Shown in pieces: positions 385 through 10,617 of a stretch of DNA of 33,278 nt. The DNA is from Pelotomaculum sp. Lineage in GTDB: Bacteria; Bacillota; Desulfotomaculia; Desulfotomaculales; Pelotomaculaceae. Where the stretch lies: contig JAHDOA010000036.1 in assembly GCA_018435055.1 (NCBI GenBank), positions 1 to 33,278 of the forward strand. The letters are read 5' to 3'. A program made the translations under genes and the position numbers. The notes under the pieces are model-generated. The model was not told the origin of the DNA. It searched no databases and saw nothing but the letters and a program-made list of their open reading frames with translations. How positions within the stretch are numbered: the stretch's first letter is position 1; each line of letters opens with the position of its first letter.

Positions 385-650
385 GCTATCTTTAATATCA
401 ACGACGCTAAAAAATGCTGGGTTGAAACTTGTTTGGAACTGGGGCGCCCGGTACTGGAGCCTTTAACCGGTGATTTTTCCGGCCAGCTCAGGATCCTAAA
501 TCTCTGCACCGGGTATTGTCAGAAAAAAGCCAGGGAAGAAAATATCAGCCTGAATCAATATATTAATTACCAGCTTGCCCGGGGAGTCGGTCATCCAACA
601 GCAGCTCCCAAAAAAAAGTGAGTACCAGAAAACCTTGATTTAAAGTGACT
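385..650 (+). pseudogene. hicB-type antitoxin remnant (3' half)
   Basis: From base 385 this stretch is nearly identical to the 3' part of the intact hicB-like gene at 22773-23180 (matching from 22911). It begins in the NINDAKKCWVETCLELGRP segment. A 7-nt deletion after CAGGATCC, a 1-nt insertion in the A-run and another 1-nt insertion near GCTTGCCC scramble parts of the frame, and there is no native start. The DNA-binding end (REENISLNQYINYQLA, an Arc-like ribbon-helix-helix segment) is still readable. The first repeat copy follows directly. This is a dead fragment; its 5' counterpart lies at 19820-19916, beyond brxL. Confidence 0.85.
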
Positions 651-652
651 TA

Positions 653-723
653 AACAAAGAGAGCCACAGGCCGGCCCCGCCCGCCTGTGGCTTCCTTAAT
701 TTGATAAAGATACAAATATGCGC
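653..723 (+). repeat. ~70-bp hairpin repeat, copy 1
   Basis: First of three copies in the window. The core is a 9-bp perfect stem GCCACAGGC (663-671) / GCCTGTGGC (683-691) with an 11-nt C/G-rich loop. It is preceded by AAACAAAGAGA and followed by CTTCCTTAATTTGATAAAG and ACAAATATGCGC. Copies 1 and 3 match along their whole length; copy 2 matches to GATAAAGAT. The hairpin with a T-rich tail could terminate transcription, but conservation beyond the stem suggests a mobile or recombination-active repeat. Copy 1 directly follows the hicB remnant. Confidence 0.85.
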
Positions 724-2970: not shown

Positions 2971-3048
2971 CTTTCGCTTGCAGCATCCAAAAGCGCAGTG
3001 CAATTTGAAATATTTAGCTGCCTTTTCGCTCCACCCAACCCAGGCGCG

Positions 3049-3228
3049 TACATCCGGCGCTCTAGGCTATACCATGCAGGTAGATGAAGGCAACCGCTAT
3101 CTATTAAGCCGCGAGGAGATTGAAAACAAGATTGCCACTTATACAGGAGGGCGTGTGGCTGAAGAAATTGTTTTCAACACATTTACAACCGGCGCGTCCA
3201 ATGATATTGAGCAGGCTCACCAGCGCAG
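3049..3228 (+). pseudogene. ftsH remnant (part of the peptidase domain)
   Basis: Reading from about 3049, [20 protein letters not shown] and then [11 protein letters not shown] and [11 protein letters not shown] are unmistakable pieces of the FtsH zinc-metalloprotease domain, the part just after the HEAGH zinc site. About 58 residues survive of a protein normally 600-650 long. The AAA+ ATPase, the membrane segments, HEAGH and the C-terminus are all absent. The frame ends in an unrelated tail directly at repeat copy 2, so the 3' break coincides with that repeat. An ATG-starting frame exists from 2978, but residues before 3049 do not look like FtsH. It cannot encode a working protease. Confidence 0.88.
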
Positions 3229-3294
3229 GTGACATAAACAAAGAGAGCCACAGATCGCCCCGCCCGCCTGTGGCTTTTCTTGTTTGATAAAGAT
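3229..3294 (+). repeat. ~70-bp hairpin repeat, copy 2
   Basis: Second copy: AAACAAAGAGAGCCACAG, a C/G-rich loop, CTGTGGC, a T-rich tail and GATAAAGAT. The stem is shortened to 7 bp because the arm bases following CCACAG are changed. It shares GTGAC-TAAACAAAGAGAGCC with copy 1. It sits exactly between the ftsH remnant and the promoter of the DUF5320/UPF0251 operon, so it marks a boundary between two gene modules. It may also stop transcription coming from nhaA-uspA. Confidence 0.82.
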
Positions 3295-3340
3295 TGAAGC
3301 TGCCGGTTATTTTTCTTGCTCAAAAAAGGAAGGATGGTTA

Positions 3341-3368
3341 TTGACATATGCCATAAACGGGATATAAT
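3341..3368 (+). promoter_or_regulatory. Sigma-A-type promoter of the DUF5320/UPF0251 operon
   Basis: Perfect consensus boxes TTGACA (3341-3346) and TATAAT (3363-3368) with a 16-bp spacer, 45 nt before the first start codon of the operon. Both predicted operator copies overlap or flank it, so it is probably repressible. Confidence 0.85.
3345..3358 (+). promoter_or_regulatory. Operator copy 1 (CATATGCCATAAAC)
   Basis: Contains the 9-nt palindrome TATG-C-CATA (3347-3355) and lies in the promoter spacer. It is repeated with one mismatch at 3381-3394, exactly 36 bp downstream, which puts both sites on similar faces of the helix. The likely binder is the UPF0251 protein encoded in the same operon (inferred). 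Confidence 0.65.
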
Positions 3369-3380
3369 AAGAATAGATGG

Positions 3381-3394
3381 CATATGTCATAAAC
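3381..3394 (+). promoter_or_regulatory. Operator copy 2 (CATATGTCATAAAC)
   Basis: Second copy, with the palindrome TATG-T-CATA at 3383-3391, just downstream of the expected transcription start. A protein bound here and at copy 1 would block the promoter from both sides. Confidence 0.65.
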
Positions 3395-3412
3395 TATAAG
3401 GAGGTGAATAAC

Positions 3413-3691
3413 ATGCCAAGAGGGGATGGAACCGGCCCAATGGGCGCTGGATCAATGACTGGAAGAGGTATGGGAATTTGCGCAGGCGCTGATGCAGTAA
3501 AGTATGGAGCTGGCCGCGGAATGGGCCCAGGTCAAGGGCATGCTTGCAGACGCGGTTTCGGTCGCGGTTTTGGCAGAGGATTTGCAGTTGACCAGACCTC
3601 CGCGAAAACACAAAAAGAGCTGCTCGAAGAACAGAAAACCATGTTGCAAGAACGACTCGGAGCTATTGATAAGCAATTAGAGAACTTATAA
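3413..3691 (+). CDS. Glycine/methionine-rich DUF5320-type protein
   Basis: A 92-residue protein of unknown function. The N-terminus MPRGDGTGPMGAGSMTGRGM is typical of the DUF5320 group, small proteins often found next to UPF0251/DUF134 regulators and iron-molybdenum-cofactor-like (NifX/NifB-type) proteins in anaerobes. The middle is rich in Gly, Arg and Phe (RRGFGRGFGRGF) with two Cys. The last ~35 residues (KTQKELLEEQKTMLQERLGA) form a predicted helix, probably a coiled coil. I chose the ATG at 3413 because AAGGAGGTG precedes it; an upstream in-frame ATG at 3377 has no such site and overlaps the operator. It is first in the operon. Metal binding or sensing is a guess from context. Confidence 0.8.
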   Translation: MPRGDGTGPMGAGSMTGRGMGICAGADAVKYGAGRGMGPGQGHACRRGFGRGFGRGFAVDQTSAKTQKELLEEQKTMLQERLGAIDKQLENL

Positions 3692-3754
3692 TGGCCATCA
3701 GGGATAACCGGAGGACGCTCTGGTTATTTCTGATCAGAATTGAGGAGATAAATC

Positions 3755-4108
3755 ATGGCCAGACCGAGAAAGTGGAGAAATGTATGCCGCTTGCCTGAGA
3801 GCAATAGATTCGGTCCTCTTGATTCATCTGCAGATGCAAAAAACCATGTAATCATGACCGTTGACGAGTATGAAACCATAAGACTGATCGATTTGGAGGG
3901 CTTTACCCAAGAAGAGTGCGCCACGCAGATGAATGTGGCTCGCAGTACCGTGCAAGGCATTTATATCGGGGCCAGAAAAAAGCTGGCTGAATCATTAGTT
4001 GAAGGAAAGGTACTGTCGATTGAGGGTGGTGAATACCGGCTTTGTGATGGGTTGGGGAATGGTTGTGGTCGCGGCTGTCATAGGCATAGACATAGACATA
4101 GGCGATGA
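3755..4108 (+). CDS. UPF0251 (DUF134) DNA-binding regulator
   Basis: A 117-residue predicted transcription regulator. The N-terminus [20 protein letters not shown] is the family signature. A helix-turn-helix resembling sigma-70 region 4 follows: [20 protein letters not shown] then [16 protein letters not shown] (about residues 36-72). The C-terminus is unusual: CGRGC followed by four His-Arg pairs, encoded by a CATAGR hexanucleotide run at 4079-4105. Alternating His with two Cys suggests a metal-sensing tail. GAGGAG precedes the ATG. It probably binds the TATGNCATA sites upstream of its own operon. UPF0251 is a recognised family, but its effector is not known to me. Confidence 0.88.
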
Positions 4109-4135
4109 GTATGGCGAATAAATGAGGGGTTATAT

Positions 4136-4609
4136 ATGACAACTGCACTTTATATTATTGCATTAGTAGCTCTTGGCGTCTCATTTTTTAAGAGCAAGGA
4201 AAAATCAATCCTTGCCCTTAAAAAAGCGTGGAAGTCATTTGAAAATATTTTACCCCAATTTCTCTCCATCTTGATTATTATCGGCATGATGTTAGCAGTT
4301 TTAACGCCAGAACAAATTTCAAAAGTTTTAGGCAATGAATCAGGATGGTATGGTGTGATGATTGCCGCGATTATTGGTTCAATTACCTTAGTGCCTGCAT
4401 TTGTAGCATTTCCGCTGGCAGCGGCCTTGTTAAGAAGCGGTGCAGGATATATGCAGATTGCGGCTTTTGTATCTACACTCATGATGGTTGGTATTGTAAC
4501 TATGCCAATAGAGATTAAATACTTTGGGAAAAAAGCGACAATTGTCAGGAATGCTGCGGCATTAGCTTTTTCATTAGTTGTGGCATTGGTCATGGGGATG
4601 GCGTTATGA
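4136..4609 (+). CDS. Half-size COG0701-type permease, subunit A
   Basis: A 157-residue membrane protein with about four to five hydrophobic helices. It matches one half of the COG0701 permease family (PF03773, which includes ArsP-like organoarsenical exporters), normally a ~300-residue protein made of two repeats. The core KVLGNESGWYGVMIAAIIGS is followed by PAFVAFPLAAALLRSG. The same pattern occurs in the next gene (KYMGEHSGLIGVLIAFLLGS, PLYAAFPVAGVLLKKG), so the two proteins are related halves that probably pair in the membrane. Its end overlaps the next start (ATGA at 4606-4609). The substrate is unknown; a metal or metalloid is plausible from the neighbours. Confidence 0.82.
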   Translation: MTTALYIIALVALGVSFFKSKEKSILALKKAWKSFENILPQFLSILIIIGMMLAVLTPEQISKVLGNESGWYGVMIAAIIGSITLVPAFVAFPLAAALLRSGAGYMQIAAFVSTLMMVGIVTMPIEIKYFGKKATIVRNAAALAFSLVVALVMGMAL

Positions 4610-5151
4610 GATCAAAAGCGTTAAATTTGGTTAAGAGGTATAGAATATTTCTGCTGCTTGCTTTTCTCAACATAGCCATACTCATTTTCTTGCCACAGGT
4701 GGGTGTTAAGTCTGTACAGTTAACATGGTCGAATTTTATAGAGATGCTGTCAGTCTTGCCGCCGATTTTTATATTGCTTGGATTATTGGACGTTTGGGTG
4801 CAGAGAGAAACCATGACAAAGTATATGGGAGAGCATTCAGGTTTGATTGGTGTATTGATTGCCTTCCTTTTAGGTTCTGCTGCTGCCGGTCCTTTATATG
4901 CTGCTTTTCCTGTTGCGGGTGTACTGTTGAAAAAGGGCAGCAAATTATCAAATGTTTTTATTATGCTTGGAGCTTGGTCAACTACAAAAATTCCTTTACT
5001 TTTATTTGAGGCATCAGCTCTTGGATTTAAATTCATGCTCTTGAGGCTGGTTATGGATATATTTGGGATTGCCATCATTGCCTATTTTACAGAAAAGATG
5101 CTATCTAAGAAAGAAAAAGAGGAAATATATCAAAGGGCATTAGCCCAATAG
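4606..5151 (+). CDS. Half-size COG0701-type permease, subunit B
   Basis: A 181-residue membrane protein, partner of the preceding half-permease and translationally coupled to it by a 4-nt overlap. A short cytoplasmic start (LNLVKRYRIF) leads into a first helix. Then comes the conserved YMGEHSGLIGVLIAFLLGSA / GPLYAAFPVAGVLLKKG repeat core and two further helices, ending in a charged tail (KMLSKKEKEEIYQ). Together A and B give the size and repeat layout of one complete COG0701 permease. No substrate-binding residues can be named from sequence. Confidence 0.82.
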   Translation: MRSKALNLVKRYRIFLLLAFLNIAILIFLPQVGVKSVQLTWSNFIEMLSVLPPIFILLGLLDVWVQRETMTKYMGEHSGLIGVLIAFLLGSAAAGPLYAAFPVAGVLLKKGSKLSNVFIMLGAWSTTKIPLLLFEASALGFKFMLLRLVMDIFGIAIIAYFTEKMLSKKEKEEIYQRALAQ

Positions 5152-5258
5152 TAGTGTTCAAATTGTTTTTCCTAATATGTACTTATGACAGTAGTTTTAG
5201 TGTTTTAAATGTGATAAACGGTATTGATAGCAAATCAACAAAAAAGAGGGGATTTTAC

Positions 5259-5591
5259 ATGAAAGTCGGATTAATCAGATGTATGCAGACAGAGGATATG
5301 TGTCCTGCAACAACAGATTTTAAAGTGATGAAAGAAAAGAAATGTGCATTTGAAGGTGTAGAAGAGGAAATTGAAGTTATTGGAGTGAATACCTGTGGTG
5401 GGTGTCCAGGGAAAAAGGCTGTGACCAGAGCAGCTGAAATGATAAGGCGTGGCGCCGATACAATAGTGTTGGCTTCATGTATAACAAAAGGAAATCCTAT
5501 AGGGTTTGCCTGTCCGCATGCAGAACAGATGAAGACTGCAATTCAAAAGAAGGTTGGCGAAACTATAAGGATTATTGATTACACACATTGA
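5259..5591 (+). CDS. CGGC-domain protein
   Basis: A 110-residue protein of the CGGC-domain family (PF08821), named for a conserved Cys-Gly-Gly-Cys motif thought to bind a metal. The start KVGLIRCMQTEDMCPATTDF has the family's early Cys residues. NTCGGCPGKKAV carries the CGGC at about residues 46-49. LASCITKGNPIGFACPH supplies two more Cys and a His. I start it at ATG 5259, preceded by AGAGGGG; a frame open from 5154 has no ribosome site. A 107-nt gap separates it from the permeases, but it is in line with them and probably in the same operon, consistent with metal handling. Its biochemical role is unknown. Confidence 0.82.
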   Translation: MKVGLIRCMQTEDMCPATTDFKVMKEKKCAFEGVEEEIEVIGVNTCGGCPGKKAVTRAAEMIRRGADTIVLASCITKGNPIGFACPHAEQMKTAIQKKVGETIRIIDYTH

Positions 5592-5681
5592 TATTGAAGA
5601 TATGTGTCACATTAGTTGAGTAAATAGTATAAGGGCAAACCTTCTTGGTAAGAATCAGGGAATGAAATCTTACATAGTCTC

Positions 5682-5752
5682 AAACAAAGAGAGCCACAGG
5701 CCAGCCCCGCCCGCCTGTGGTTTCCTTATTTAATAAAGATACAAATATGCGC
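5682..5752 (+). repeat. ~70-bp hairpin repeat, copy 3
   Basis: Third copy, matching copy 1 over its whole length (AAACAAAGAGAGCCACAGGC ... ACAAATATGCGC) with only a few differences, one of them a G-T pair at the stem end. It lies directly upstream of the BREX leader. Copies 1 and 3 therefore form direct repeats bracketing the 5-kb accessory stretch. It may also isolate brxA from upstream transcription. Confidence 0.85.
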
Positions 5753-5773
5753 CTTGAGCATACCTTTACGAAA

Positions 5774-5797
5774 ATATTTGTTATAATATTTGTTATA
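5774..5797 (+). promoter_or_regulatory. Perfect tandem 12-mer in the brxA leader
   Basis: ATATTTGTTATA occurs twice with no gap (5774-5785 and 5786-5797), 36 nt before the brxA start. The stretch also holds TATAAT at 5782-5787 and again at 5796-5801, usable as -10 boxes, but no well-spaced -35 box is evident. It may be an operator or activator site controlling the operon. Confidence 0.5.
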
Positions 5798-5833
5798 TAA
5801 TGAAAAAAATAGACTAAAAAGAAGAGGCAGCAA

Positions 5834-6433
5834 GTGAAAGAAAAAATCTACAGCGCTAAAATTGAAAAAGCCCCCTTTACTTTTATTGAGCTGAAAAAAG
5901 CGGCAGCCCTGGCCCTGCAGGGTTTCAGCCAGGCTGAAATCAAAGAAATAGCGGTGCGCGACAACCTCTTTCAAGTAAACACCGACGACCGCAAAAAGGA
6001 ACTGGCGCGGATGGTCTTAAAAAGAATGCAGGCTTTGGACCAGTACTTGCTGCAGCAGTTGGTTAATGGAAGCGCGGCGACAGGCAAGCTGATTGTTCTC
6101 TACGCCATCATGAAAACTGACCGGCTGTTTTTTGAATTTATGAACGAAGTATTTAAAGAAAAACTGATTATCCGGGACTACACCCTGGCTGATAAAGATT
6201 TTTACAATTTCTTCGCCGAAAAAAAGGAACAAAGCGAGAGATTGGCTGCCTGGCGTGAATACACATTTTACAAGGTAAGACAGGTGTATATCCGGGTTCT
6301 CTTTGAAGCAGGCCTGATTAAAGATAAAAAAAGCAGGGAAATTGTCAAACCGCTCCCGGACCAATCCTTGATTCACAACTGGTTGTCCCGGGGCGATGGT
6401 ATGATCGTTAATATACTACGCGGGCATAACTAG
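5834..6433 (+). CDS. brxA: BrxA (DUF1819), type 1 BREX
   Basis: First gene of the BREX operon, 199 residues, the usual BrxA size. BrxA is a small, mostly helical protein (DUF1819) resembling the RNA-binding antiterminator NusB; it binds DNA in some systems, but its exact task in defence is unsettled. Recognisable segments are YSAKIEKAPFTFIELKKAA near the N-terminus and the central KLIVLYAIMKTDRLFFEFM. The start is GTG at 5834 behind AGAGG; no ATG fits better. It is followed after 30 nt by brxB. The order brxA-brxB-brxC-pglX-pglZ-brxL defines type 1 BREX. Confidence 0.93.
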   Translation: MKEKIYSAKIEKAPFTFIELKKAAALALQGFSQAEIKEIAVRDNLFQVNTDDRKKELARMVLKRMQALDQYLLQQLVNGSAATGKLIVLYAIMKTDRLFFEFMNEVFKEKLIIRDYTLADKDFYNFFAEKKEQSERLAAWREYTFYKVRQVYIRVLFEAGLIKDKKSREIVKPLPDQSLIHNWLSRGDGMIVNILRGHN

Positions 6434-6463
6434 CGTTCCTGGCGAGAAACGAGGGATAAACCC

Positions 6464-7048
6464 ATGAAGACTATCCACGAAAGGCTGGACGCCATCATCC
6501 CGGAAATACAAAAGAAGTCCTTCCGGGAAAATAAAGGGCTGGGCAATGAGGTCGGGTTTTATATTTTTGATTATGAACCAGAATATGAAATGCTTGTCCG
6601 TGACTATATCGAATTTTTAGTAGAAAAGTTCAAAAGCGGCAGCGGCGGCTTCAAAATAAAAGAGTTCGATCTTTATGAGATCATGCTCACCATCCTTGCG
6701 GAAAAGGGGTTTCTGGCCAAAAACATGGAAATGGAAGCCCAAAAGGGCAGCGAATACATCTTCAAGGCCACCAAAAAGGCCTTAAGGCTCACCGACAGTA
6801 ACGATCTTATTGTTCAGTTCATTCGTGAAAGAGTGGCAAAGGACGACGTCATCTTCCTTACCGGCGTCGGCAAGGCCTGGCCCATAATCCGGTCCCACAC
6901 CGTCTTAAACAACCTGCACGCGGTTGTTGAGCAGGCGCCGCTGGTGATGTTTTTCCCCGGCACCTACGACGGGCTGGAGCTGGTCTTGCTGGATGAAATC
7001 AAAGACGACAATTACTACCGGGCTTTTAAACTGGTGGAGAGATATTAG
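6464..7048 (+). CDS. brxB: BrxB (DUF1788), type 1 BREX
   Basis: A 194-residue protein of the DUF1788 family, one of the six core type 1 BREX components, with no enzymatic motif. Family traits: an N-terminus around LDAIIPEIQKKSFRENKGLG, the segment GFYIFDYEPEYEMLVRDYIE, and the C-terminal half with DDVIFLTGVGKAWPIIRSHT and PLVMFFPGTYDGLELVL. Its length is normal. It sits 30 nt after brxA and 20 nt before brxC, so it is co-transcribed. In studied systems BrxB is needed for function and is thought to be part of a complex with other Brx proteins; nothing here shows its partner. Confidence 0.93.
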   Translation: MKTIHERLDAIIPEIQKKSFRENKGLGNEVGFYIFDYEPEYEMLVRDYIEFLVEKFKSGSGGFKIKEFDLYEIMLTILAEKGFLAKNMEMEAQKGSEYIFKATKKALRLTDSNDLIVQFIRERVAKDDVIFLTGVGKAWPIIRSHTVLNNLHAVVEQAPLVMFFPGTYDGLELVLLDEIKDDNYYRAFKLVERY

Positions 7049-7068
7049 CTATACGGGGGTGTGCGAGT

Positions 7069-10000
7069 TTGCTGATTAGAGATATGTTCCACAAGCGGAT
7101 CGATCGGGATATCAAGGGCGTAATCAAAATTGGCCAGGATGATGACAGCAATGTCACCCAGGAACTGGAGGAGTATGTGGTCACCAGGGAGTTGAACCGC
7201 CATTTCAGCGATTTCTTTGAGGCTTACAAGAAAGGTATTAACGGGTATACCGACAAAATGGGGGTCTGGATCTCGGGCTTCTTTGGCAGCGGTAAATCCC
7301 ACTTCCTCAAGATCCTGTCCTACCTCCTGGAGAATAGAGTGGCAGACGGCAAAAAAGCTGTAGATTACTTTAAAGATAAAATTAACGACCCCCTGCTGCT
7401 GGCGGACATGAAAAAGGCCGGCGATATCCCTGCGGATGTCATTCTCTTTAATATCGACTCCAAGAGCGAGGCTGACGCCAAGGCCAATAAAGACGCTATA
7501 GTTAAAGTCTTCAACCGGGTTTTTAATGATATGCAGGGCTTTTGCGGTTCCATCCCGTGGGTGGCCGATCTGGAAAGGCAGATGTCCGCCGACGGTACCT
7601 ATACAGCATTCAAGGATGAATTTGCCCGCATCGCCGGGCGGCAGTGGACCGCAGCCAGAGACGACTTCTACTACGAGGAAGACGCCATCGTAGCGGCCCT
7701 GGCCGCCGCCACCAGGATGAGCGAAGAGGCGGCCAGGAACTGGTACAACAAGGCGGAGGAAAACTATACCCTGACCGTGGACAAATTCGCCAAAAGGGTC
7801 AGGAAATACATAGAAGGGAAAGGCCGTAACCACCACGTTGTCTTCTGCGTGGACGAGATGGGCCAGTATATCGGCGACAGCTCGGGGCTGATGCTGAACC
7901 TCCAGACCGTCGTGGAGGACCTGGGCGCCGAGTGCGGCGGCAAGGCCTGGGTCATGGTCACCAGCCAGCAGGATATCGACGCCGTCACCAGAGTCAAGGG
8001 CAATGACTTCTCCAAGATCCAGGGCCGGTTCAACACCAGGCTCAGCCTGTCCAGCGCCAACGTGGACGAGGTAATCAAGCGGCGGATCCTTGAAAAAACC
8101 CCCGTTGCCAAAGACACTCTGCAGCTTCTTTACGAAACCAAAAGCTCCATCCTGAAAAACCTGATCACCTTTTCCGCCGATACCCCGGAGAAGAAGTTTT
8201 ATACCGGCAGCGCTGACTTTGCTGAAGTTTACCCGTTTATCCCCTACCAGTTCAACCTTTTGCAGCAGGTGCTGACTTCAATCAGGATTCACGGTTCCAC
8301 CGGCAAGCACCTGTCCGAGGGCGAGCGCTCCATGATCAGCTCCTTCCAGGAGTCAGCCATCCGCTTTGCCGGCAGCGAACAGGGCGCCCTGATCCCATTT
8401 TCCGCTTTCTATGATACCATCGAGGCCTTTCTTGACTCCACCATCCGCACGGTGGTGATCCATGCCCAGGACAGCGACGTCCTTTCTGATTTTGATGTGA
8501 AGCTGTTGAAAGTTCTTTTTATGATCAAATATGTCAAAGAAATACCGGCCAACATTGAAAACCTGGCCACCCTCCTGGTTGGGCATATTGATGAAGATAA
8601 AATAGACCTGAAGAAAAAGATAGAAGATTCGCTGAAGAGGCTGATTAAGGAAACACTGGTGCAAAAAAACGGCGACCAGTATATCTTCCTCACCCACGAA
8701 GAACAGGACATCAACAGGGAAATCAAGAGTATCCATGTGGATATCGGCGAAGTGATCCAGAAGGCCTCCGAGATTATCTTTGAAGAGATCTACCCGGATA
8801 AAAAGTTCAAATACTCATCTCATTATAATTTCCCCTTCAACCAGGTCGTCGACGACCGGGTGTATCGCGGCCTCCAGACCAACGATATCGGGGTCAAGGT
8901 GATCACCCCGTACTATGACCCGGGTACCGAAATGACCCAGCTTGTCTTAAAAGAGATGTCCCAACGGGAGAACAACTTGATTGTCAACCTGCCGGCGAAC
9001 GCAACCTTCCTTAACGAGCTGGAGGATGTGCTGAAAATTCAGACCTACCTGCGTAAAACGGGCGGCGTGGCAGGCAGCGAAACAATGGAAGAGATCAAAA
9101 CCACAAAGGGCCAGGAGGTCGGAGAGCGGATGACCAGGGTAAAGGCCCTGCTTTACGACTCCTTGCAGGCCGCCGAATTGTATGTCAACTCGCAGAAACT
9201 GGAGATTAAGGAAAAGGACCCGGCCGTCCGGTTAAACGAAGGCTTCCGGTCATTGATTAACGCCAACTATACCAGACTCGCCTACATCAACACCTTCATC
9301 GACTCAGACGGCGCTATCGCCGACATCCTGTACAAAGACACCGTGCAGCTGAATATCATCGAAGAACCCAACAAACTGGCCCTGGCTGAGGTGTCCGCCT
9401 TCATCGAAAGAAATACACTGAGGCACATCCCGGTGACCATGAAAACGGTAACGGCCACTTTTCAGAAAGCGCCTTACGGCTGGAATGAAATAGATATCGA
9501 AGGCTTAATCGCCAAACTGTTCAGGGCGCAGGAAGTCAAACTGCAGCTAAACAGCGAGTACCTGGGCATGGAAGACCGTGACCTGGCGCGGTATCTCACC
9601 AGGCGCGAATATGCAGAAAAGCTGCTGGTGGAAAAAAGAATCAAGGTATCCCCGGCGCTGCTCAATACCGCCAGGGAAATCTGCAAAGAAGTATTCAACA
9701 AGACCGCCCTGCCCCCTGACGAGGACGGGCTGATGCGCCGGTTAAAAAGATTCGTGGCAGACGAGGCCGGCCAGATCAAGGCCCTGCTGGAAAACTATAA
9801 ATATGCCCCTTACCCCGGCCGCGGCATATTGGACGCAGGCTCTAAACTCCTGGCGGAACTGTTTAAAATCAAAGATACCGGGGAGTTCTTCGCGGCGCTG
9901 CAGGAAAAAAAGGAACGTTTCCTTGATTATGGTGAAGACTCCCAGGATCTAAAGAAGTTTTTTGACCCGGAAGGAAAACAAAAGGAGATCTTCGACCGGG

Positions 10001-10617
10001 CCCTGCGGGCGGTGAAGATCTTCCAGAAGAATAAGACCTATGTGCTGGACCGGACGGCCATTGACACCTGCGGGCAGATCGAAAGGATCGTAACCAGCCA
10101 GCAGCCTTACAGCAGTATCCATAAACTGCCGGAACTGGTCGACAAGTTCAATGACATCTTCGTCCAGCTGTTGGAGCAGGAGTGCCGGCCGGTACGGCAG
10201 GTGGTGGAAAGCGATTATGGCAAGGTCAGAGAGGAAATGGCGGCCTATGGCGTCGCGGACAAGTTCGGGAATAAGTTCAAGCATGGTTACGATGACCTGC
10301 TGGAACGGCTGGGCCGGGCCAACAACTTCTATGAGGCTATCGCCATGAAGGAAGAAAGCGACCGGCTCAAGCTGCGCTATATTGGAGAGATTACCCGGGA
10401 AGCGGCAAGGCTAAAAGCTGAACAGGAAAATGAAACAGGCGGGGGAGTGGTTGTTCCCCCATTGCAAAAGAAGAGGACCGTCACCATCAGCATGGCCCGC
10501 CTCCTGCGCGGCGCCAGGAATATCGAGTCCCAGGCTGATTTAGACAAACTGCTGTCCGACATCAGGGTCAGGCTGGAAGAAAAATTGGCTGATGATACCA
10601 TATTGAAAATCGTGTAG
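7069..10617 (+). CDS. brxC: BrxC, large BREX ATPase
   Basis: 1182-residue P-loop ATPase, the BREX protein formerly called PglY-like/DUF499-like. A Walker A motif GFFGSGKS is at residues 70-77, followed by HFLKILSYLL. The probable Walker B is VVFCVDEMGQYIGD at 257-270, with D262 and E263. The rest is largely helical, with charged stretches and coiled-coil-like segments towards the C-terminus (around KEESDRLKLRYIGEITREAA). Length is normal for BrxC (about 1200). It starts with TTG at 7069 behind GGGGGTG, and the first residues LIRDMFHKRIDRDIKGVIK fit the family. GC is high, like the other BREX core genes. BrxC is required for both methylation and phage exclusion in studied systems. Confidence 0.95.
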   Translation: MLIRDMFHKRIDRDIKGVIKIGQDDDSNVTQELEEYVVTRELNRHFSDFFEAYKKGINGYTDKMGVWISGFFGSGKSHFLKILSYLLENRVADGKKAVDYFKDKINDPLLLADMKKAGDIPADVILFNIDSKSEADAKANKDAIVKVFNRVFNDMQGFCGSIPWVADLERQMSADGTYTAFKDEFARIAGRQWTAARDDFYYEEDAIVAALAAATRMSEEAARNWYNKAEENYTLTVDKFAKRVRKYIEGKGRNHHVVFCVDEMGQYIGDSSGLMLNLQTVVEDLGAECGGKAWVMVTSQQDIDAVTRVKGNDFSKIQGRFNTRLSLSSANVDEVIKRRILEKTPVAKDTLQLLYETKSSILKNLITFSADTPEKKFYTGSADFAEVYPFIPYQFNLLQQVLTSIRIHGSTGKHLSEGERSMISSFQESAIRFAGSEQGALIPFSAFYDTIEAFLDSTIRTVVIHAQDSDVLSDFDVKLLKVLFMIKYVKEIPANIENLATLLVGHIDEDKIDLKKKIEDSLKRLIKETLVQKNGDQYIFLTHEEQDINREIKSIHVDIGEVIQKASEIIFEEIYPDKKFKYSSHYNFPFNQVVDDRVYRGLQTNDIGVKVITPYYDPGTEMTQLVLKEMSQRENNLIVNLPANATFLNELEDVLKIQTYLRKTGGVAGSETMEEIKTTKGQEVGERMTRVKALLYDSLQAAELYVNSQKLEIKEKDPAVRLNEGFRSLINANYTRLAYINTFIDSDGAIADILYKDTVQLNIIEEPNKLALAEVSAFIERNTLRHIPVTMKTVTATFQKAPYGWNEIDIEGLIAKLFRAQEVKLQLNSEYLGMEDRDLARYLTRREYAEKLLVEKRIKVSPALLNTAREICKEVFNKTALPPDEDGLMRRLKRFVADEAGQIKALLENYKYAPYPGRGILDAGSKLLAELFKIKDTGEFFAALQEKKERFLDYGEDSQDLKKFFDPEGKQKEIFDRALRAVKIFQKNKTYVLDRTAIDTCGQIERIVTSQQPYSSIHKLPELVDKFNDIFVQLLEQECRPVRQVVESDYGKVREEMAAYGVADKFGNKFKHGYDDLLERLGRANNFYEAIAMKEESDRLKLRYIGEITREAARLKAEQENETGGGVVVPPLQKKRTVTISMARLLRGARNIESQADLDKLLSDIRVRLEEKLADDTILKIV

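Follow-up and report, generated by a model that had tools for sequence, protein, structure and literature searches.

The solved protein chains closest by sequence profile to the UPF0251/DUF134 protein discussed here, which is encoded by a Pelotomaculum sp., are those of the DNA-binding domain of DeoR of Bacillus subtilis, a member of the SorC family (7bhy and 8r7y; E 4.5e-5 for the closest). The available portion of its description reports that DeoR binds TTGAACA-type half-sites in a two-part operator of 39 bp that partially overlaps the promoter, that the complex in solution formed solely with the full two-part operator, and that R34 and R39 are in base contact (PMC11229326). The UPF0251 protein differs from DeoR in having only 117 aa, with no Pfam match to the C-terminal sugar-binding effector domain of approximately 250 aa of SorC/DeoR proteins; its family has a C-terminus that is cysteine-rich or of the NifX type, and two full palindromes frame the promoter. 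A second comparison is region 4 of sigma-70, which may be similar in its helix-turn-helix (HTH) fold (VIA Z of at most 7.4, all under 8), and both proteins would read TTGACA. The UPF0251 protein, in contrast, scores 20.8 bits, which is under the Pfam cut-offs of 24.1 (PF04545) and 25.7 (PF08281), no other sigma region, including region 2, was reported by the Pfam search, and its proposed site is palindromic. The third comparison is with the Orange-protein and MrpORP gene sets of Desulfovibrio, as NifX-type and Mrp-type genes are neighbours of many DUF134 genes. Those operons reportedly depend on a sigma-54 promoter and on the regulator that goes with it (PMC6345978), whereas the operon studied here has a sigma-70 promoter framed by candidate operators. 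For UPF0251/DUF134 itself (PF02001, annotated as of unknown function), no operator or role was found in the literature searched, which lay outside subscription journals, preprints and RegPrecise, and the letters GACATATGTC gave no related title among the matches listed.

The window, i.e., the whole stretch of 33,278 nucleotides that was analysed, contains an operon on the forward strand. Its promoter consists of the -35 hexamer TTGACA (3341-3346), a 16-nt spacer and the -10 hexamer TATAAT (3363-3368). This is the sole 12/12 promoter match between 2400 and 7000, so that the consensus promoter of the first-pass annotation is borne out, and transcription would start near 3375. The ribosome-binding sequence AAGGAGG was read directly at 3398-3404 (forward strand). 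It is followed by a glycine-rich DUF5320 protein of 92 aa (3413-3691; PF17253, 98.5 bits, cut-off 27) and by the UPF0251 protein (3755-4108), which, as annotated before, belongs to this family (PF02001, 75.1 bits, cut-off 27), while its score with the NCBIfam equivalog model PRK04217 is 65.6 bits, under the cut-off of 115. The next two genes encode half-size ArsP_1-like permeases of 157 aa (4136-4609; PF03773, 27.2 bits, under the cut-off of 32.3) and 181 aa (4606-5151; PF03773, 55.3 bits). A CGGC-domain protein of 110 aa (5259-5591; PF08821, 105 bits, cut-off 27) is encoded 107 nt past the second permease and is probably part of the operon. No RNA element in 3000-6000 reached the Rfam gathering score. 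The surroundings of the operon contain an element of 60-70 bp with a terminator-like inverted repeat, present in three copies in the window (648-711, 3232-3302 and 5682-5740; 86-88% identical) and without a copy elsewhere in the genome at E 0.001; two of the copies flank the operon in a cassette-like manner. Downstream, 5834-10617 contains BREX defence genes, of which BrxA and BrxB were identified by Pfam; the frame of 1182 aa at 7069 is BrxC-like by eye. Upstream, an 84-aa frame at 2978-3232 covers only part of FtsH (Peptidase_M41, profile positions 39-95 of 191) and is probably a gene remnant.

Two candidate operators, neither assigned to a strand and both conserved in relatives, frame the promoter. 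O1, TTATTGACATATGCCATAAAC (3338-3358), has its palindrome centre between 3347 and 3348, and O2, GATGGCATATGTCATAAAC (3376-3394), has its centre between 3383 and 3384; both are imperfect palindromes, O2 the less perfect, and their centres are 36 bp apart. It had been proposed that two near-identical sites with TATGNCATA as core lie 36 bp apart, one in the spacer and one at the predicted start. The spacing and the near-identity hold, since a direct repeat of 17 nt (3342-3358 and 3378-3394) is 88% identical over this distance, and O2 lies at or just past the presumed +1, but O1 also contains the -35 hexamer. TATGNCATA indeed has exactly two copies in the window, at 3347-3355 and 3383-3391, but it is weak on its own, as two or more matches also turned up when the window was shuffled (6 of 100 shuffles), and the copies are also inverted: O1 and O2 form an inverted repeat with 21-nt arms that are 86% complementary and have TGACATATGCCAT exactly in common. 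As a consensus, TATGNCATA was rejected because relatives conserve a different centre. The conserved element is a palindrome of about 20 bp centred on CATATG, with the consensus TTATTGACATATGTCAATAA, and its copies occur as an inverted pair. A class A operator regulon of UPF0251 is proposed in the present analysis, with two such palindromes framing a sigma-70 promoter, their centres 31-42 bp apart, and a UPF0251 protein that would bind them and alter transcription; the pair in the window, with 36 bp, has this arrangement.

Single sites are of little use as markers. The 13-mer TGRCATATGYCAT has no copies in the 3.28-Mb genome besides the two window sites. Across 25 genomes of the family, the 12-mer TGRCATATGYCA was matched 25 times and its reversed control 17 times (counted from the table), which is near chance, and it was rejected as a genome-wide marker; its extra copy in the own genome (C57:53244) is not near any DUF134 gene. 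In the own genome, the degenerate 20-mer TTATNNNYATATRNNNATAA did not discriminate either: at a tolerance of one mismatch it was found 10 times and its control 8 times, although one of the 10 matches pointed to a third DUF134 operon. A single short site does not discriminate; the specificity resides in the pair. The own genome has three DUF134 genes, and each lies in an operon headed by such a pair. At C36:76040 the pair reads TTATTGACCTACGTTCATAT and TAAAGGACATATGTCAATAA. At C36:28660, a gene run headed by TTATTGACATTAGCTCATAA and TTATGAACCTATGACCATAA encodes, by eye, NifX, two DUF5320-like proteins, two MinD-like proteins, NifX, Mrp and, in eighth place, DUF134.

A DUF134/UPF0251 match is present in 108 of the 113 genomes of the order. 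By our own count there are 141 matches above the cut-off, and 137 genes were analysed; three fragments (two in G005 and one in G101) and the second gene within the L125 stretch were left out. The genes were divided by their recognition helix into classes A to F, letters that were assigned in the present analysis. The helix region that sets the class is encoded in the window at 3935-3964 (forward strand; residues 61-70) and is of the class A type ([AS]R[TS]T[VI]..IY, including Y70), with S64, which is rarer than T64. Class A comprises 20 genes in 18 genomes, and CATATG palindromes occur upstream of all 20 (order-wide set, n=137), by plain patterns that were also picked after the class had been inspected. 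The pair matrix was derived from 24 sites of these very loci; its counts therefore lack independence and describe the association rather than test it: pairs were present at 45 of the 137 genes, 44 of them exceeding the best of 548 shuffles, with 20/20 in class A (19 within 800 bp), 9/10 in class B, 9/40 in class C (one weak), 7/28 in class F and none in classes D (0/35) and E (0/4), where for the low-yield classes C, D, E and F the upstream sequence often ends at 1.5 kb. In L108, a class A locus, the matrix gave its highest score to a pair 4.2 kb upstream; the promoter of the gene itself has a divergent pair, which was seen directly. As a control, any pair was found downstream in 1 of 130 stretches, which are shorter than the upstream ones. 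A different palindrome, TTATGAAACATGTTTCATAT, was observed at -48 from DUF134 in L031 and L039, and a similar one at -49 in L001, all genomes of the genus.

The tests in other genomes are two scans that start from the motif. The pattern TTGACATATGT-N(24-34)-ACATATGTCA was searched in a collection of one genome per species (84,980 species), which gave at least 119 stretches, 8 of the 119 listed overlapping with the protein-first set. Using a profile from the 137 proteins, a DUF134 reading frame was detected in 104 of the 119 matches listed, and in 102 it lies within 800 bp of the pair, where about 0.4 would be expected from the DUF134 gene density in the order. With relatives of DUF5320, NifX, MinD or Mrp included, 113 of the 119 matches listed have such a gene near the pair. 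Among the 15 stretches listed without DUF134, NifX-like or DUF5320-like genes were recognized by eye at L160, L196, L197, L211, L212, L214, L218 and L273; blastp, with masking off as DUF5320 is of low complexity, agrees and adds L199. Neither DUF134 nor such a neighbour was found at L163, L186, L208, L217, L224 and L258, and the pair of L186 lies at a contig end. Near 5526 of L208 the pair reads GGTTGACATATGTAACC...GGTTACATATGTCAACC and adjoins a BlaI-like ORF (by eye); these are perhaps the sites of another regulator that fit the pattern. In the phylum scan the pair was found in 42 of 398 genomes and its reversed control in none. DUF134 is present at 27 of the 30 loci kept, which include three genomes of the order that are shared with the protein-first set, and DUF134 or a NifX-, MinD-, DUF5320- or Mrp-type neighbour at all 30. 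Centre-to-centre distances at the motif-first loci listed (L158-L276) are bimodal, with peaks at 33 and 38 bp, which is about half a helical turn apart.

The association of the pair with DUF134 is thus far beyond chance. As the same pair fronts genes of the same family in many other bacteria, it is very probable that the UPF0251 protein uses the site pair to control the operon in which it is encoded. The earlier proposal that this protein has the paired sites as its operators gains from the family link, both in the 20 of 20 class A genes and in the motif-first matches, where its suggestion to look for the motif near other UPF0251 genes was fruitful; its form is corrected to a palindrome on CATATG, and in this corrected form the binding-site prediction stands, with binding itself predicted from sequence.

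The main reading, to which a probability of roughly 0.8 is given, is that UPF0251 is an autoregulatory repressor that would act through O1 and O2 and be released by an effector, probably a metal or metal-sulfur species. A dimer of the protein, with a putative sigma-region-4-like HTH, would bind each palindrome, and the operator that it reads would include the -35 sequence. Two dimers would then cover the -35 hexamer (O1) and the transcription start (O2) and shut the promoter. The operon would repress itself until the effector frees the protein, and release would lead to more of the split ArsP-like permease and the CGGC protein.

It is unlikely that UPF0251 binds these sites but activates, or acts in a sigma-like, polymerase-recruiting manner. 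The AlphaFold model (mean pLDDT 79.9) contains an HTH for which sigma region 4 provides most of the structural matches, none of them strong (best Foldseek E 0.08, none at 0.001 or below), and together with the weak region 4 similarity of 20.8 bits, under the cut-offs, and the inclusion of the -35 hexamer in O1 this would be compatible with a sigma-like role. The promoter, however, is already a perfect sigma-70 match, and a -10 hexamer (at most one mismatch) is kept 15-19 nt past a TTGACA in 92 of the 119 matches listed; an activator would therefore be unneeded. The position of O2 at the presumed start is also typical of repression, and the missing report of sigma region 2 in the Pfam search argues against a sigma-like protein.

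Helix type and site type were also compared. Of the 104 motif-first proteins among the matches listed, 101 could be aligned over the helix, and R63, T65 and Y70 are present in all 101 and T64 in 96. In the order at large, Y70 is found in 20 of 137 (Fisher p 3e-47, a value that ignores relatedness). Judged from the alignment and the five-residue spacing, the UPF0251 counterparts of R34 and R39 of DeoR would be residues 63 and 68. All 117 genes of classes B to F encode R at position 68, but 92 of 101 motif-first proteins from the matches listed have G, A or S there. Motif discovery was performed per class on 450 nt upstream; as it used palindromic seeds and enforced symmetry, the motifs owe their palindromic form in part to the method. 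In class A, 15 sequences (near-duplicates removed) gave TTATTGACATATGTCAATAA with a score of 233, against 109-125 in six shuffles. Class B, with the helix AQSTF, gave TTATGGGTATATACCCATAA (10 sequences, 160 against 85-92 in shuffles), class C the type TTATGAAC-N4-GTTCATAA (36 sequences, 328 against 228-245) and class F the type TTATkGACATATGtCcATAA (24 sequences, 243 against 161-170). The class D consensus, GCCTGATGCCCGGCACCAGC, was rejected as an operator, being by eye coding sequence of a neighbouring gene. GRCATATGYC occurs within 800 nt upstream in 17/20 class A, 2/10 class B, 0/40 class C and 1/28 class F genes, and in 0/131 downstream controls, while GGGTATA, on either strand, occurs in 9/10 class B and 4/20 class A genes and in 8/131 controls. 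Helix type and site type vary together, with one exception seen, L108, which has a class A helix, yet a class-B-like second site, TAATGGGTATATACCCATAA.

CRP/FNR-type regulators bind sites of the form TTGAC-N4-GTCAA, which TTGACATATGTCAA resembles in its letters alone. It would be conceivable on this basis that the sites belong to another regulator, of the CRP/FNR or ArsR type, under whose control these operons happen to be. This is very unlikely, as 104 of the 119 matches to the pair listed, from many taxa, contain DUF134, with one helix type only (101 of 101 readable in the matches listed), whereas different palindromes accompany the other helix types; a regulator from outside would not track the helix of DUF134. 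A chance resemblance of AT-rich promoter sequence, for which the 6 of 100 shuffles with TATGNCATA twice and the 25 against 17 matches of the 12-mer could be cited, is already contradicted by the DUF134 link and by the phylum scan, with 42 of 398 genomes against none for its control.

For repression by UPF0251, the nature of the releasing signal is suggested by the protein itself. All 20 class A proteins have Cys 11, 97, 104 and 108, and in the motif-first matches listed, where alignable, C97 is present in 94/95, C104 in 96/97, C108 in 80/84 and C11 in 63/104. The cysteine-rich tail of the AlphaFold model is of low confidence (pLDDT about 40-57). In addition, the DUF134 frame also matches NifX in 51 of the 119 motif-first matches listed, and the five loci scanned (L191, L180, L228, L187 and L236) all have DUF134 and a Nitro_FeMo-Co (NifX-type) domain fused in one frame. 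These cysteines and fusions point to a metal or metal-sulfur species as the probable effector, with no particular one indicated.

The genes near the pair differ between loci. DUF5320 is present in 16 of 20 class A stretches, for which the available downstream sequence is often under 2 kb. Both permease halves follow DUF134 in L144, and one half lies 2.1 kb upstream in L146, both of class A. Among the 119 motif-first matches listed, no ArsP or CGGC relatives were found within 3 kb of the pairs (one query set, E 1e-4). Because of this, and as permeases occur in few class A stretches, a regulator that is usual beside NifX, MinD or DUF5320 genes seems to serve a putative metal/metalloid permease here.

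A broader reading is offered tentatively, at somewhat less than even odds. UPF0251 proteins would be widespread regulators of anaerobes, sigma-region-4-like, that read the -35 sequence as a doubled, inverted element (TTGACA-TA-TGTCAA), with the helix classes reading sister palindromes of the form TTAT-NNN-YATATR-NNN-ATAA. A cysteine-rich tail or a fused NifX-type domain would sense a metal-sulfur cofactor, and the family would be dedicated to the control of NifX/MinD/DUF5320 metal-cluster genes and be recruited in this operon to a putative metal/metalloid permease.

DUF134 is nearly universal in the order, yet no function was given in the entries found. The pair provides a concrete candidate binding site for an unstudied regulator family, for which the protein, the DNA and the neighbour genes are now testable, and since the site search retrieves the family (104 of the 119 matches listed), the family is testable at once. 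It also offers a way to approach the NifX, MinD and DUF5320 genes found in anaerobes, and the helix types with their operator types form a natural series in which the reading of DNA by such proteins may be studied.
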